A DNA stretch of 64,000 nucleotides from Mesoflavibacter profundi (GTDB taxonomy: Bacteria; Bacteroidota; Bacteroidia; Flavobacteriales; Flavobacteriaceae), in the NCBI RefSeq assembly GCF_014764305.1, contig NZ_CP061703.1, positions 881,501-945,500 of the forward strand. Direction: 5' to 3'. The notes under the pieces were generated by a model. It saw only the letters and a list, made by a program, of their open reading frames with translations. It was not told the origin of the DNA and searched no databases. Positions 25,847 through 30,531 of this stretch are shown piece after piece (positions within the stretch are counted from its first letter, which is position 1; every line of letters begins with the position of its first letter). A program made the translations under genes and the position numbers.

Positions 25847-26557
25847 CTAATCTCGACTTCCAAATACTTGTAAAGCCCAATACAATAGCGATGCTAAAGC
25901 ACCAATAGCTGCAACTAAATAGGTTCTTGCTGCCCATTTTAAAGCATCTTCACTACCTGCATATTCTTCTGGTGTTACCATGTTTTTTGCTTTTAACCAT
26001 GCTAATGCACGATTACTTGCATCATACTCTACTGGTAAAGTGATAAAACTAAATAGCGTTGCAAATCCCATCATAACAAGTCCTGCTATTGCTACATAAA
26101 AACCGCTACCACCTAAAGCGTTAGAAGCCATTAATGCTATACCACCAATAATAACCCATTGTGACATACTTGAAGTTACTTGCACAACTGGTACTAATTT
26201 AGATCGCATTGTTAAATATTGATATGCTGTTGCATGTTGTACAGCATGACCAACTTCGTGCGCTGCAACTGCTGCAGCTGCAGCATTGGCATGATTGTAA
26301 ACCACTTCACTTAAATTAACGGTTTTATCTACCGGATTGTAATGGTCTGTTAACTGACCTCTTGTAGAAATTACTTTTACGTCTTGTATACCATGATCGG
26401 CTAACATTTTTTCTGCTATTTGAGCGCCTGTCATCCCATTACGTAAGTGCACTTTAGAGTAATGTGCGAATTTTCGTTTTAACTGGCTACTTACCATACC
26501 ACTTACTAAAGCAATAACACCTATTAGTATGTAGTAACCCATATATCCTGTAAACAT
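25847..26557 (-). CDS. YugP-like zinc metallopeptidase (membrane)
   Basis: A 236-residue membrane protein of the YugP family. An N-terminal hydrophobic segment precedes the zinc site HEVGHAVQHA near residues 105-114 (HExxH), and two or three further membrane segments follow, with VEYDASNRALAWL near 185 providing a likely third ligand. The family is predicted to be a neutral zinc protease of the inner membrane; substrates are unknown. Confidence 0.88.
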   Translation of the reverse strand: MFTGYMGYYILIGVIALVSGMVSSQLKRKFAHYSKVHLRNGMTGAQIAEKMLADHGIQDVKVISTRGQLTDHYNPVDKTVNLSEVVYNHANAAAAAVAAHEVGHAVQHATAYQYLTMRSKLVPVVQVTSSMSQWVIIGGIALMASNALGGSGFYVAIAGLVMMGFATLFSFITLPVEYDASNRALAWLKAKNMVTPEEYAGSEDALKWAARTYLVAAIGALASLLYWALQVFGSRD

Positions 26558-26740: not shown

Positions 26741-26852
26741 AGTTCTCGATACAACGCTCCTTATGTCGCGTCACTCGAACTGACGTATTGGAATTAAAAC
26801 TACCGTCACTTCGAGTGATTTGTGAGACACGAACAAATTGTATCGAGAAGTT
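26741..26852 (+). repeat. 107-bp nested palindromic repeat, copy 1
   Basis: Core 26743-26849. Outer arms TTCTCGATACAA (26743-26754) and TTGTATCGAGAA (26838-26849) are perfectly inverted; inner arms TCACTCGAACTGACG (26771-26785) and CGTCACTTCGAGTGA (26804-26818) are inverted with one mismatch. It ends about 16 bases before the ATG of the GIY-YIG gene. Confidence 0.9.
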
Positions 26853-26867
26853 TCATATCTTTTATAC

Positions 26868-27158
26868 ATGAAAATCTCTTATGTATATATTTTAAAATGT
26901 TCTGATAATACCTACTATACAGGAATTACTTCTAATTTAGAACAACGGATTACAGAACATAAGCTTGGAAAACATATTGAAAGTTATACCTATAAACGAA
27001 GACCTATCGAACTTAAGTTTTATGCTGAATTCTCCGATATAAGTATAGCAATTCAAACAGAAAAGCAAATTAAAAAATGGTCTAAAGCTAAAAAAGAAGC
27101 ATTGATTAATGATGAATTTGAAAAGCTTCCTAATTTGGCTAAAAAGAAATTTAAATAA
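26868..27158 (+). CDS. Small GIY-YIG endonuclease
   Basis: A 96-residue single-domain protein of the GIY-YIG nuclease family (UvrC N-terminal-like, YhbQ type). The two-part signature is YVY (residues 5-7) and YTG (17-19), followed by Arg27, His31 and catalytic Glu65 in QTEKQIKKW. Such proteins cut DNA using one metal ion; small stand-alone members have unclear roles in repair or mobility. The ATG at 26868 gives the canonical N-terminus MKISYVYILKC; a longer frame would start with a TTG inside the repeat. The gene is squeezed between repeat copies 1 and 2, and a near-consensus TATCTTTT box lies in the short 5' gap. Confidence 0.9.
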   Translation: MKISYVYILKCSDNTYYTGITSNLEQRITEHKLGKHIESYTYKRRPIELKFYAEFSDISIAIQTEKQIKKWSKAKKEALINDEFEKLPNLAKKKFK

Positions 27159-27160
27159 AT

Positions 27161-27272
27161 AGTTCTCGATACAACGCTCCTTATGTCGCGTCACTCGAAC
27201 TGACGTATTGGAATTAAACCTACCGTCACTTCGAGTGATTTGTGAGGTACGAGCAAATTGTATCGAGAAGTT
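27161..27272 (+). repeat. 107-bp nested palindromic repeat, copy 2
   Basis: Core 27163-27269. It differs from copy 1 at four positions (A/C in the apical loop, and AC/GT plus A/G near the right arm) while both outer arms are identical. It begins four bases after the stop codon of the GIY-YIG gene. Confidence 0.9.
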
Positions 27273-27311: not shown

Positions 27312-27421
27312 AGTTCTCTACACAACGCTCCTTAGGTCGCGCCACTCGAACTGACGTATTGGGATTAAATCTATCGTCACTTCGAAAGATTTATGAGACA
27401 CGAACAAATTGTATCGAGAAG
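27312..27421 (+). repeat. 107-bp nested palindromic repeat, copy 3 (diverged)
   Basis: Core 27314-27420, also exactly 107 bp. The left arm has changed to TTCTCTACACAA while the right arm keeps TTGTATCGAGAA, and scattered substitutions occur inside. It lies 44 bases after copy 2. Together with copy 2 it fills most of the 326-base gap before the leuS terminator. Confidence 0.88.
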
Positions 27422-27426
27422 CAAAA

Positions 27427-27484: not shown

Positions 27485-30400
27485 TTATCCTACGATATTC
27501 ACAATTTTACCTGGCACAATAATTACTTTTTTAGGTGTACGACCTTGTAATTGTTCTTGTGTTTTTTCGTGAGCCATAACGGTTTTTTCTATTTCGTCTT
27601 TGCTCATATCTAACTGTAATTCTAGTGTAAAACGCATTTTACCGTTAAATGAAATTGGATAATTCTTACTACTTTCTACTAAATGTTTTTCTTCAAAAAC
27701 TGGGAAAGGCGCTGTAGAAATTGACATTTCATTACCTAATTGGTGCCATAACTCTTCTGCTATATGTGGCGCGTATGGCGATACTAAAATTAGTAATGGT
27801 TGTAAAATATCACGACTTGTACATTTTTGCGCTGTTAGCTCGTTAACTGCAATCATAAAAGTAGATACCGATGTATTGAAAGAGAAATTCTCAATATCTT
27901 CTTCTACCTTTTTAATGGTTTTATGTAAGGTTTTCAGGTTGTCTTTTGTAGGTTCTGCATCGGTAATTTTTAAACCATTATCGTCTACGTATAACTTCCA
28001 TAATTTTTTAAGGAAACCATGCACACCTGTAATACCAGCAGTATTCCAAGGTTTTGCTTGCTCTAACGGACCTAAAAACATCTCATACAAACGTAGGCTA
28101 TCTGCACCGTAATCTTCACAGATTTGATCTGGATTAACCACGTTGTATTTTGATTTAGACATTTTTTCGACTTCGCGAGCAGCTATGTTTGTTAAAATTT
28201 TTGAATTAGAATTTTCTGGGTTCCAATTAAAATATTTTTCAAAATCTATTTCATTAGAAGAATTCACATATTCGACTGGAATTGGAATTTTTCTTAGGTC
28301 TTCCTTGGTAATTTCAGCATATTGAACTCCGTAATCTTTGAATAAATCGTGAAATTTTTCGTCGTTTTCCGTAATTTTCACAATATCTTCCTTAGTATAA
28401 TTTCCTGATATTAATTTATTATATAATTCTTCTGATATTATATAAGTGTTTTTAACACCTAACTTTTTAAGCTTGTTGAAGTAATCTGATTTTTGCATTA
28501 ATTCACTTACATCATGAACATCATTTGCTTGAAAATTAACACCTCTTTTTAAAACAAATGCATATGCACTAGTCCCAAGTATCATTCCTTGGTTTATTAG
28601 CTTTTTAAAAGGTTCATCTACGTTTACAAAATGTCTATCTTTTAAAAACTTAGTCCAAAAACGTGCATATAATAAATGTCCTGTCGCGTGCTCACTTCCG
28701 CCAATGTATAAATCTACATTTTCCCAGTAGTTAAGTGCATCTTCGGTTGCAAATGCATTACCACGATTAGCTTGTTCTTCCATATATCTAAAGAAATACC
28801 AAGAACTTCCTGCCCAACCTGGCATGGTGTTAAGCTCTAAAGGAAATACCGTTTTATCATCTATTTTATCGTTGCTAACCACTTGGTTTAATTGCGTATC
28901 CCAAGCCCAAACATCTGCACGACCTAATGGTGGCTCGCCAGTTTCGGTTGGTAGATATTTTTCTACTTCTGGTAAGGTAATTGGCAAATGTTTTTGGTCT
29001 ATCATTTGTGGCATACCATTAACATAATACACTGGGAAAGGTTCTCCCCAATAACGCTGACGACTAAATACTGCGTCACGTAAACGGTAGTTGGTTTTTC
29101 CTTGTCCTTGTCCAATTTGTTCTAGCTCAAAAATAGCACGTTTGGTTGCTTTTTTATAGTTCATTCCGTTAAGGAAATCGCTATTAGCAATCACGGTTTT
29201 TTCTTTATCTGCAAACGCTGCTTCGCTTATATCTACACCTTCAAAAATATTTGGGATTTCGATATTAAAATGTTTTGCAAAATCGTAATCACGTTGGTCG
29301 CCACAAGGTACAGCCATTACTGCTCCAGTACCATAACTAGCTAGTACGTAATCTCCAATCCAAATTGGGACTGGTTCTTTAGTAAACGGATGCTCTGCAT
29401 ACGCGCCTGTAAATGCACCAGAAATGGTTTTTACATCTGCCATACGGTCGCGTTCGCTACGTTTTGCAGTTGCTTCGATGTAGGCATTTACCTCATCTTT
29501 TTGTTCTGGTGTTGTAATTTTTGAAACCAAATCGTGCTCTGGCGCTAAAGTCATAAAACTTACACCAAAAATAGTATCTGGTCTTGTGGTGAATACTTCG
29601 ATTGTTTCGTTATGATCTTTTACGTTGAAAGTTACTGATGCTCCAACCGATTTACCAATCCAATTACGCTGACTTTCTTTTAACGCATCTGTCCAATCTA
29701 TGCCATCTAAACCTTGTAATAATCGTTCTGCATAAGCCGAAATACGCATAGACCATTGTGTCATTTTTTTACGCACAACAGGATGACCGCCACGTTCTGA
29801 GACGCCATTTACAATCTCGTCGTTAGCTAAAACGGTTCCTAAAGCCGGACACCAATTTACTTCGGTTTCTGCTAAATACGTTAATCTGTATTTTAATAAT
29901 ATGTCTTGTTGTTTTTCAGATGAAAAGGCTTGCCATTCTTCAGCAGAAAATGTTTCAACTGTTTCGTCACAAACAGCGTTAACTGTTGCATTTCCTTCCG
30001 AAGAAAAAAGCGCTTCTAATGTTGAAATGTCTTCAGCTTGATCTGAATCTACATTATACCAAGAGTTGAACAGTTGAATGAAAATCCACTGCGTCCATTT
30101 GTAATATTCTGGATTACTGGTACGTACTTCTCTGCTCCAATCAAAAGAAAACCCAATTTTATCTAACTGTTTTCTGTACGTAGCAATATTGGTTTTTGTA
30201 GTAATTGCAGGATGTTGTCCTGTTTGGATTGCATACTGTTCAGCCGGTAACCCAAAGCTATCATAACCTTGCGGATGCAATACATTAAAACCCTTATGGC
30301 GTTTGTAGCGCGCATAAATATCACTAGCAATATACCCTAACGGATGTCCAACGTGTAATCCTGCTCCAGATGGATAAGGAAACATGTCTAACACGTAATA

Positions 30401-30496
30401 TTTAGGTTTTTCGCTGTTGTTTTCGGCTTTAAAAGTTTCGTTTTTGGCCCAATACTGTTGCCAATGGTCTTCTATCTTTTTAAAATCGTATTGCAT
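27485..30496 (-). CDS. leuS: Leucyl-tRNA synthetase
   Basis: A 1003-residue class I synthetase for tRNA-Leu. The HIGH motif is HVGH in PYPSGAGLHVGHPLGYIASD near residue 50; the KMSKS motif is intact near residue 779 (EVEKMSKSKYNVVNPD). A CP1 editing domain with the TTRPDTIFGVSF segment is present, as is the Bacteroidota insert carrying NAVCDETVETFSAEEW. The stretch before KMSKS (about residues 642-775, FVLKRGVNF... to NIAARE) is the leucine-specific region and looks unusually long and divergent. The start is ATG 30496; a promoter box at 30524-30531 excludes the frame's earlier start at 30526. Confidence 0.96.
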   Translation of the reverse strand: MQYDFKKIEDHWQQYWAKNETFKAENNSEKPKYYVLDMFPYPSGAGLHVGHPLGYIASDIYARYKRHKGFNVLHPQGYDSFGLPAEQYAIQTGQHPAITTKTNIATYRKQLDKIGFSFDWSREVRTSNPEYYKWTQWIFIQLFNSWYNVDSDQAEDISTLEALFSSEGNATVNAVCDETVETFSAEEWQAFSSEKQQDILLKYRLTYLAETEVNWCPALGTVLANDEIVNGVSERGGHPVVRKKMTQWSMRISAYAERLLQGLDGIDWTDALKESQRNWIGKSVGASVTFNVKDHNETIEVFTTRPDTIFGVSFMTLAPEHDLVSKITTPEQKDEVNAYIEATAKRSERDRMADVKTISGAFTGAYAEHPFTKEPVPIWIGDYVLASYGTGAVMAVPCGDQRDYDFAKHFNIEIPNIFEGVDISEAAFADKEKTVIANSDFLNGMNYKKATKRAIFELEQIGQGQGKTNYRLRDAVFSRQRYWGEPFPVYYVNGMPQMIDQKHLPITLPEVEKYLPTETGEPPLGRADVWAWDTQLNQVVSNDKIDDKTVFPLELNTMPGWAGSSWYFFRYMEEQANRGNAFATEDALNYWENVDLYIGGSEHATGHLLYARFWTKFLKDRHFVNVDEPFKKLINQGMILGTSAYAFVLKRGVNFQANDVHDVSELMQKSDYFNKLKKLGVKNTYIISEELYNKLISGNYTKEDIVKITENDEKFHDLFKDYGVQYAEITKEDLRKIPIPVEYVNSSNEIDFEKYFNWNPENSNSKILTNIAAREVEKMSKSKYNVVNPDQICEDYGADSLRLYEMFLGPLEQAKPWNTAGITGVHGFLKKLWKLYVDDNGLKITDAEPTKDNLKTLHKTIKKVEEDIENFSFNTSVSTFMIAVNELTAQKCTSRDILQPLLILVSPYAPHIAEELWHQLGNEMSISTAPFPVFEEKHLVESSKNYPISFNGKMRFTLELQLDMSKDEIEKTVMAHEKTQEQLQGRTPKKVIIVPGKIVNIVG

Positions 30497-30523
30497 CTTG
30501 TTGTTTTTCGGCTTATAAAAGCG

Positions 30524-30531
30524 CAAATTTA
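30524..30531 (-). promoter_or_regulatory. -7 promoter box of leuS
   Basis: Minus-strand TAAATTTG matches TAnnTTTG and ends 27 bases before the leuS ATG. Confidence 0.6.

Follow-up and report, generated by a model that had tools for sequence, protein, structure and literature searches.

In REP-RAYT/REPIN systems, REPs with a GTAG tag are paired with a dedicated enzyme, the HUH tyrosine transposase TnpA-REP (RAYT); the enzyme gene is flanked by its own repeat family, whose members form inverted doublets, are specific to enzyme clades and also occur as dispersed solo repeats. CGTC-tagged REPs consist of a CGTC tag (often TGTC or CCTC), an 8–9 bp stem, a 4–5 nt loop and a CCA tail, are mostly arranged as intergenic head-to-head dimers and occur in five phyla, including Proteobacteria and Bacteroidetes (Di Nocera, De Gregorio and Rocco, 2013; PMC3733652). 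They "apparently lack a dedicated transposase," and "GIY" is absent from the text of that study (PMC3733652); nuclease, transposase and RAYT go unmentioned in a 2025 survey of REPs (PMC12306157).

The locus described here lies in a 64,000-nucleotide stretch (the window) of the Mesoflavibacter profundi genome (3.09 Mb, one contig). It is best read as a REP and dedicated-enzyme system analogous to REP-RAYT, with which it shares the single flanked enzyme gene, the inverted doublets, the clade-specific repeats and the dispersed solo repeats, but from which it differs in tag (CGTC/TGTC instead of GTAG) and in its enzyme, an unrelated GIY-YIG nuclease expected to act hydrolytically. An earlier note on this DNA had described two near-identical 107-bp palindromes tightly bracketing a GIY-YIG gene. 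Both are real, each 107 nt long and together 96% identical, and the bracketing is as close as claimed: the open reading frame starts 18 nt past the first copy and its stop codon ends 4 nt ahead of the second (Table 1). The count did not stand, as a third copy (91% identical) had been missed, nor did the 107-mer as the repeating unit. It is composed of a minus-strand unit, an 18-nt conserved spacer and a plus-strand unit, the GTCA end of each unit pointing inward. The half of about 45 nt forms the basic unit: half-units occur singly in the genome (several of its 11 matches to the 107-mer cover one half only), and minimal loci carry one unit per side.

Table 1. Positions in the window of the GIY-YIG gene, the repeats around it and the neighboring genes.
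Feature	Position	Strand	Remarks
Upstream neighbor	25847–26557		Read as zinc metallopeptidase
107-mer, copy 1	26743–26849
REP-like unit A, copy 1	26741–26785	−	CGTCA-GTTC-GAG...CGA-GAAC-T; sequence and strict unit match
REP-like unit B, copy 1	26804–26851	+	CGTCA-CTTC-GAG...CGA-GAAG-T; ends 16 nt ahead of ATG; sequence and strict unit match
Single-domain GIY-YIG nuclease gene, 96 aa	26868–27158	+	UPF0213/YhbQ-like fold; Pfam PF01541, E = 7e-17
107-mer, copy 2	27163–27269
REP-like unit A, copy 2	27161–27205	−	Starts 3 nt past stop codon; sequence and strict unit match
REP-like unit B, copy 2	27224–27271	+	Sequence and strict unit match
107-mer, copy 3	27314–27420
REP-like unit A, copy 3	27312–27356	−	Degenerate
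REP-like unit B, copy 3	27375–27422	+	Degenerate; abuts leuS terminator
leuS	27485–30526

Units in the window follow the frame CGTCA-(C/G)TTC-GAG-(variable hairpin)-CGA-GAA(G/C), and the basic unit derived from minimal flavobacterial loci is (C/T)GTCA-(C/G)TTC-GAG-TG-(variable small hairpin)-TAT-CGA-GAA(G/C). One unit commonly ends 10–20 nt ahead of the start codon, and an inverted unit starts 0–10 nt past the stop. CG or TG precedes TCA in most units, the window units opening with CGTCA; GAG and CGA are nearly invariant and, placed opposite each other, would allow tandem G-A pairs beside the stem. The first stem base is complementary to its partner in 349 of 358 distinct units (G-C in 185, C-G in 159), compared with a mean of 171 and a maximum of 198 after shuffling, and the inner hairpin has 5.51 of 6 positions paired, against 4.18 when arms are swapped; this covariation and pairing indicate that the fold itself, and not the sequence alone, is under selection. 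Covariation was used in place of single-unit folding because nearest-neighbor energies may undervalue tandem G-A steps: folded as single-stranded DNA, the 107-mer gave z = −4.9, and the window's own single units, folded as DNA, gave no significant z.

The protein encoded between the repeats carries the features of the GIY-YIG superfamily (two tyrosines, an arginine, a histidine and a metal-binding glutamate), according to its Pfam match, its fold matches and the residues Y7, Y17, G19, R27, H31, and E65, which are invariant in 26 homologues. Its AlphaFold model (pLDDT 84) has its best PDB matches in 1zg2 and 1ywl (UPF0213) and a weaker one in Slx1; an NCBIfam profile search with the 96-residue protein gave no match. 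No HUH tyrosine transposase was detected at the locus, where Pfam and fold searches return GIY-YIG only. For this fold, cleavage should be hydrolytic and proceed without a covalent protein-DNA intermediate, unlike cleavage by RAYTs. UPF0213/YhbQ/YazA proteins have the same fold and size, but flanking repeats of this type are absent from E. coli yhbQ and from two homologues on Legionella plasmids.

The association of gene and repeat was followed in 80 flavobacterial homologues of the 96-residue protein, taken with their flanking DNA. At 78 of these loci the repeat arm (TTCTCGATAC/GTATCGAGAA, at most one mismatch) is found on each side of the gene no farther than 200 bp away, and at the other two it is found on one side; the first outcome that the earlier note had named as refuting its reading, a general lack of palindromes beside homologues, is thus not what is seen. 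Arms number 7.7/kb near the gene, falling to 0.38/kb beyond 1 kb. The pattern is not due to chance: units matching a strict structural pattern occur at 4.77/kb beside the homologues, at 0.31/kb beyond 700 bp and at 0.004/kb once the flanks are shuffled. These raw densities set intergenic against partly coding DNA; non-coding DNA far from the gene has at most 3.0/kb (vs. 4.8/kb near the gene). The repeats also track the gene across 149 genomes of the family, with units in all 20 that encode the subfamily and in 42 of the 129 that do not (Fisher, 2.9e-9), and the excess in genomes with the gene persists after four flanking units per genome are subtracted (Mann-Whitney, 1.5e-5); the second refuting outcome named in the note, equal abundance in gene-free genomes, is thus not seen either. 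The congener G068, which has no gene of the subfamily, holds 19 units; the persistence of units in gene-free genomes implies that the nuclease, if it spreads them, is not needed for keeping them.

Because CGTC REPs had been reported without a dedicated enzyme, proteobacterial GIY-YIG genes were inspected as well. In regions from a plasmid collection, textbook or near-textbook CGTC REPs lie on both sides of the GIY-YIG gene in 13 of 15, a count that includes Novosphingobium and Spirosoma, whose variants fall outside the search pattern and were judged by eye. GIY-YIG genes with textbook CGTC REPs around them occur in Rhizobium (CGTCATCCCAGGGCTTGACCCTGGGATCCA), Shinella and Sinorhizobium (S. meliloti; both CGTCATCCTCGGGCTTGACCCGAGGATCCA), Azospirillum (CGTCATCCCCGCGAAGGCGGGGATCCA), Sphingobium, Aeromonas, and Neisseria (dRS3; CGTCATTCCCGCGCAGGCGGGAATCTA in Neisseria gonorrhoeae), and a GIY-YIG gene on a plasmid of the cyanobacterium Planktothrix carries GTCA-TTCT-GAGTGAAACGA-AGAA. 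Overall, considerably more than a hundred bacterial genes show the pairing, and they come from three phyla or more. The three other small GIY-YIG genes of the M. profundi genome (L013–L015) had been intended as repeat-free controls, for which the initial pattern was blank, yet CGTC/TGTC-tagged hairpins adjoin them, on both sides of one and upstream of two. On plasmid p1 of Planktothrix agardhii, the GIY-YIG gene and its GTCATTCTGAG repeats have an MmeI-like restriction-modification gene on one side and, on the other, drmA from a DISARM defense locus; the N. gonorrhoeae gene lies inside a dRS3 cluster of NZ_CP119140.1 (2.17 Mb), a record that, like CP090106.1, looks like a chromosome filed as a plasmid.

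The reading given in the earlier note is amended in that the repeats belong to, or derive from, the CGTC REP superfamily. The window units share with CGTC REPs the CGTC/TGTC end tag, a palindromic stem, the head-to-head dimer (the 107-mer) and an intergenic location, but they depart from the classical form (an uninterrupted 8–9 bp stem, a 4–5 nt loop and a CCA tail): their stem has 4–5 bp and is followed by a GA/AG step and a hairpin that is long and variable, for which reason they are classed as a derived variant and not as members. Repeats flanking the genes of Rhizobiaceae, Azospirillum, and Neisseria have the classical form, as approximately do those of the three M. profundi paralogues. 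The recurrence of the pairing makes the GIY-YIG nuclease a strong candidate for the enzyme that CGTC-tagged REPs were reported to lack. In the open-access papers searched, no paper linking GIY-YIG proteins with REPs was found, and searches by repeat sequence returned primers and unrelated matches only; since most subscription papers and bioRxiv preprints lie outside that coverage, priority cannot be claimed.

The stem of the unit follows the clade of the nuclease. Loci scoring at least 135 bits have a (C/G)TTC-type stem and a long hairpin, with a unit at 102 of 105 loci (both sides at 89) and with TC (185) or TT (6) as the final two stem bases; in the next score band, the short core GAGCGCAGTCGA goes with stems that are chiefly NNCT or NNTC. 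More distant homologues of the same family and phylum keep the unit frame with other 4-bp stems, such as GTCA-GGCT-GAGCGCAGTCGA-AGCC, GTCA-CCTC-GAGCGCAGTCGA-GAGG, GTCA-GTCT...AGAC, and GTCATT-GAG...CGA-AATGAC. When stem class is mapped on a nuclease tree of 167 rows, built on 100 columns and with many forks unresolved, it requires 30 changes, against 72.8 with shuffled labels (0 of 200 shuffles as low). Label shuffling tests clustering only, which near-copies inflate, so the greatest weight is given to genomes in which two subfamilies each have their own stem: TTC vs. CACT in G132, TTC vs. GTCT/CACT in G138, TTC vs. GGCT in G013, and TTC vs. GGTC in G120.

This matching, which holds within single genomes, bears on the proposal that REP clusters are simply tolerant intergenic spots in which small genes lodge, the association being non-functional. 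REPs are intergenic by nature, and the density contrast given above, which sets intergenic against partly coding DNA, would also suit such a reading; it does not account for the clade-matched stems, nor for the recurrence of the pairing across phyla. In a control of three alphaproteobacterial regions (141 kb), only 2 of 114 genes had a repeat on either side at 150 bp or less, and each of the two was the GIY-YIG gene of its region; in the third region, the downstream repeat of the GIY-YIG gene lies just past 150 bp or outside the pattern. On the strength of the stem-clade matching and the 114-gene control, chance and passenger status were rejected, the latter being judged highly improbable. The pairing is real and broad, and it is probably functional.

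Cassettes are present and absent at orthologous sites. In Azospirillum lipoferum 4B, a cassette of REP dimer, gene and REP dimer splits sufB from sufC, and three relatives with 95–98% identical flanks have neither gene nor REPs between sufB and sufC; further Azospirillum records match the site by two flanks only, and at the cassette junctions the intergenic sequence is too diverged for a target-site duplication to be read. In G068, the single congener compared (peptidase 97% identical), the leuS end holds one 107-mer, corresponding to copy 3 of the window, and no gene. Empty sites thus exist in relatives in both cases. Between the single 107-mer of G068 and the peptidase, at the position of the GIY-YIG cassette in the window, lies an alanine-dehydrogenase-like gene; since this gene also differs, loss by recombination is as possible at that site as gain. 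Unit sites are mostly shared between M. profundi and G068; one lacks the unit in G068 but has unclean ends, another differs by an insertion within the unit loop. Comparison of the two genomes revealed no case in which a unit alone had inserted with clean ends or with a duplicated target.

A homing-type cassette would also produce presence and absence at orthologous sites: the nuclease would cut cassette-free alleles or lone REPs, homologous repair would copy the cassette in with the REPs as homology arms, and solo REPs would spread by other means. GIY-YIG enzymes are classical homing nucleases, with the same catalytic domain, and the single 107-mer of G068, set against 107-mer, gene and 107-mer in the window, is what would be expected if a cassette had homed into a REP pair or had been lost from one by recombination. 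The empty Azospirillum site, however, holds no REP, so that REP homology was not needed there, and homing leaves unexplained why solo units carry the address of the nuclease clade. Such a cassette is accordingly thought improbable, if somewhat less so than passenger status. The loci described here also differ from GIY-YIG homing endonucleases in having neither introns nor inteins, in lacking a DNA-binding domain apart from the nuclease, and in the hairpin repeats that flank the gene.

The 105 close-homologue loci (some mutual duplicates) span at least 47 gene contexts, and tandem cassettes and copies with internal stop codons occur. Some subfamily loci keep conserved neighbors, which implies that mobility is slow or old there. 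Internal stops were seen in homologues from G107, G108, G075, G010, G124, and G123, as would be expected if the gene had decayed repeatedly and left its repeats behind. In matches on Sinorhizobium medicae plasmids, only the first ~30 nuclease residues align, which suggests decayed remnants common to strains.

The long-conserved neighbors at some loci would also agree with a host-serving role, in which a domesticated structure-specific (Slx1- or UvrC-like) enzyme trims or resolves REP hairpins or cruciforms without spreading them. The modeled fold, nearest to UPF0213 and more distantly to the branched-DNA nuclease Slx1, is compatible with such a role, as is the annotation of E. coli YhbQ, a nuclease of the DNA-damage response; but the presence and absence of cassettes, the variety of contexts and the tandem and decayed copies look like those of a selfish element, and a housekeeping enzyme need neither adjoin its substrate nor shift its address with its clade. 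Maintenance is thus considered unlikely, though the least so of the three alternatives.

It is instead regarded as likely that the small GIY-YIG nuclease and its hairpin-repeat family constitute one widespread system, in which the nuclease would cut its own unit and repair would spread it; the REP-RAYT-like arrangement with an unrelated enzyme proposed in the earlier note is upheld by the flanking of homologues, the distribution across genomes and the empty sites. Each nuclease clade is flanked by units that set its own stem in a shared frame composed of a CGTC/TGTC tag, the clade stem, GAG...CGA (in classical CGTC REPs, the uninterrupted stem) and the complementary stem. A unit, when single-stranded, would extrude as a hairpin or cruciform; the nuclease would recognize tag and stem and introduce a hydrolytic nick or break there, with no covalent protein-DNA intermediate expected for the fold; host repair would then copy the unit, or the whole cassette of repeat, gene and repeat, into new places and multiply it in tandem, so that cutting would drive the spread. 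The analysis establishes the association and how broad it is, the match of stem to clade, the selection on pairing and the cassette differences at orthologous sites; recognition, cutting and copying are inferred. A wider proposal, favored on balance and with less assurance, is that CGTC REPs as a superfamily, neisserial dRS3 among them, have the GIY-YIG nuclease as their dedicated enzyme, and that the two form a pan-bacterial hairpin mobile element in which the stem is an address co-evolving with the nuclease. CGTC REPs occur in many phyla, and a clade-matched nuclease offers a specific, testable candidate for their spread; if this is true, it would define a class of hairpin mobile elements whose enzyme fold and chemistry are unlike those of the known REP transposase, and it suggests two separate origins of REPs paired with an enzyme, the enzymes being unrelated. 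The protein would also be a compact natural nuclease that seems to choose its target by a short stem.

Elsewhere in the M. profundi genome (L228, about 1550–1610), a unit loop contains another small palindrome, ATCAAAATATATTTTGAT, close to GAAGATA, which may be a nested mini-element. It is missing from the orthologous unit in G068 (L215), and a similar sequence lies inside units of other flavobacteria (flanks of L116 and L126).
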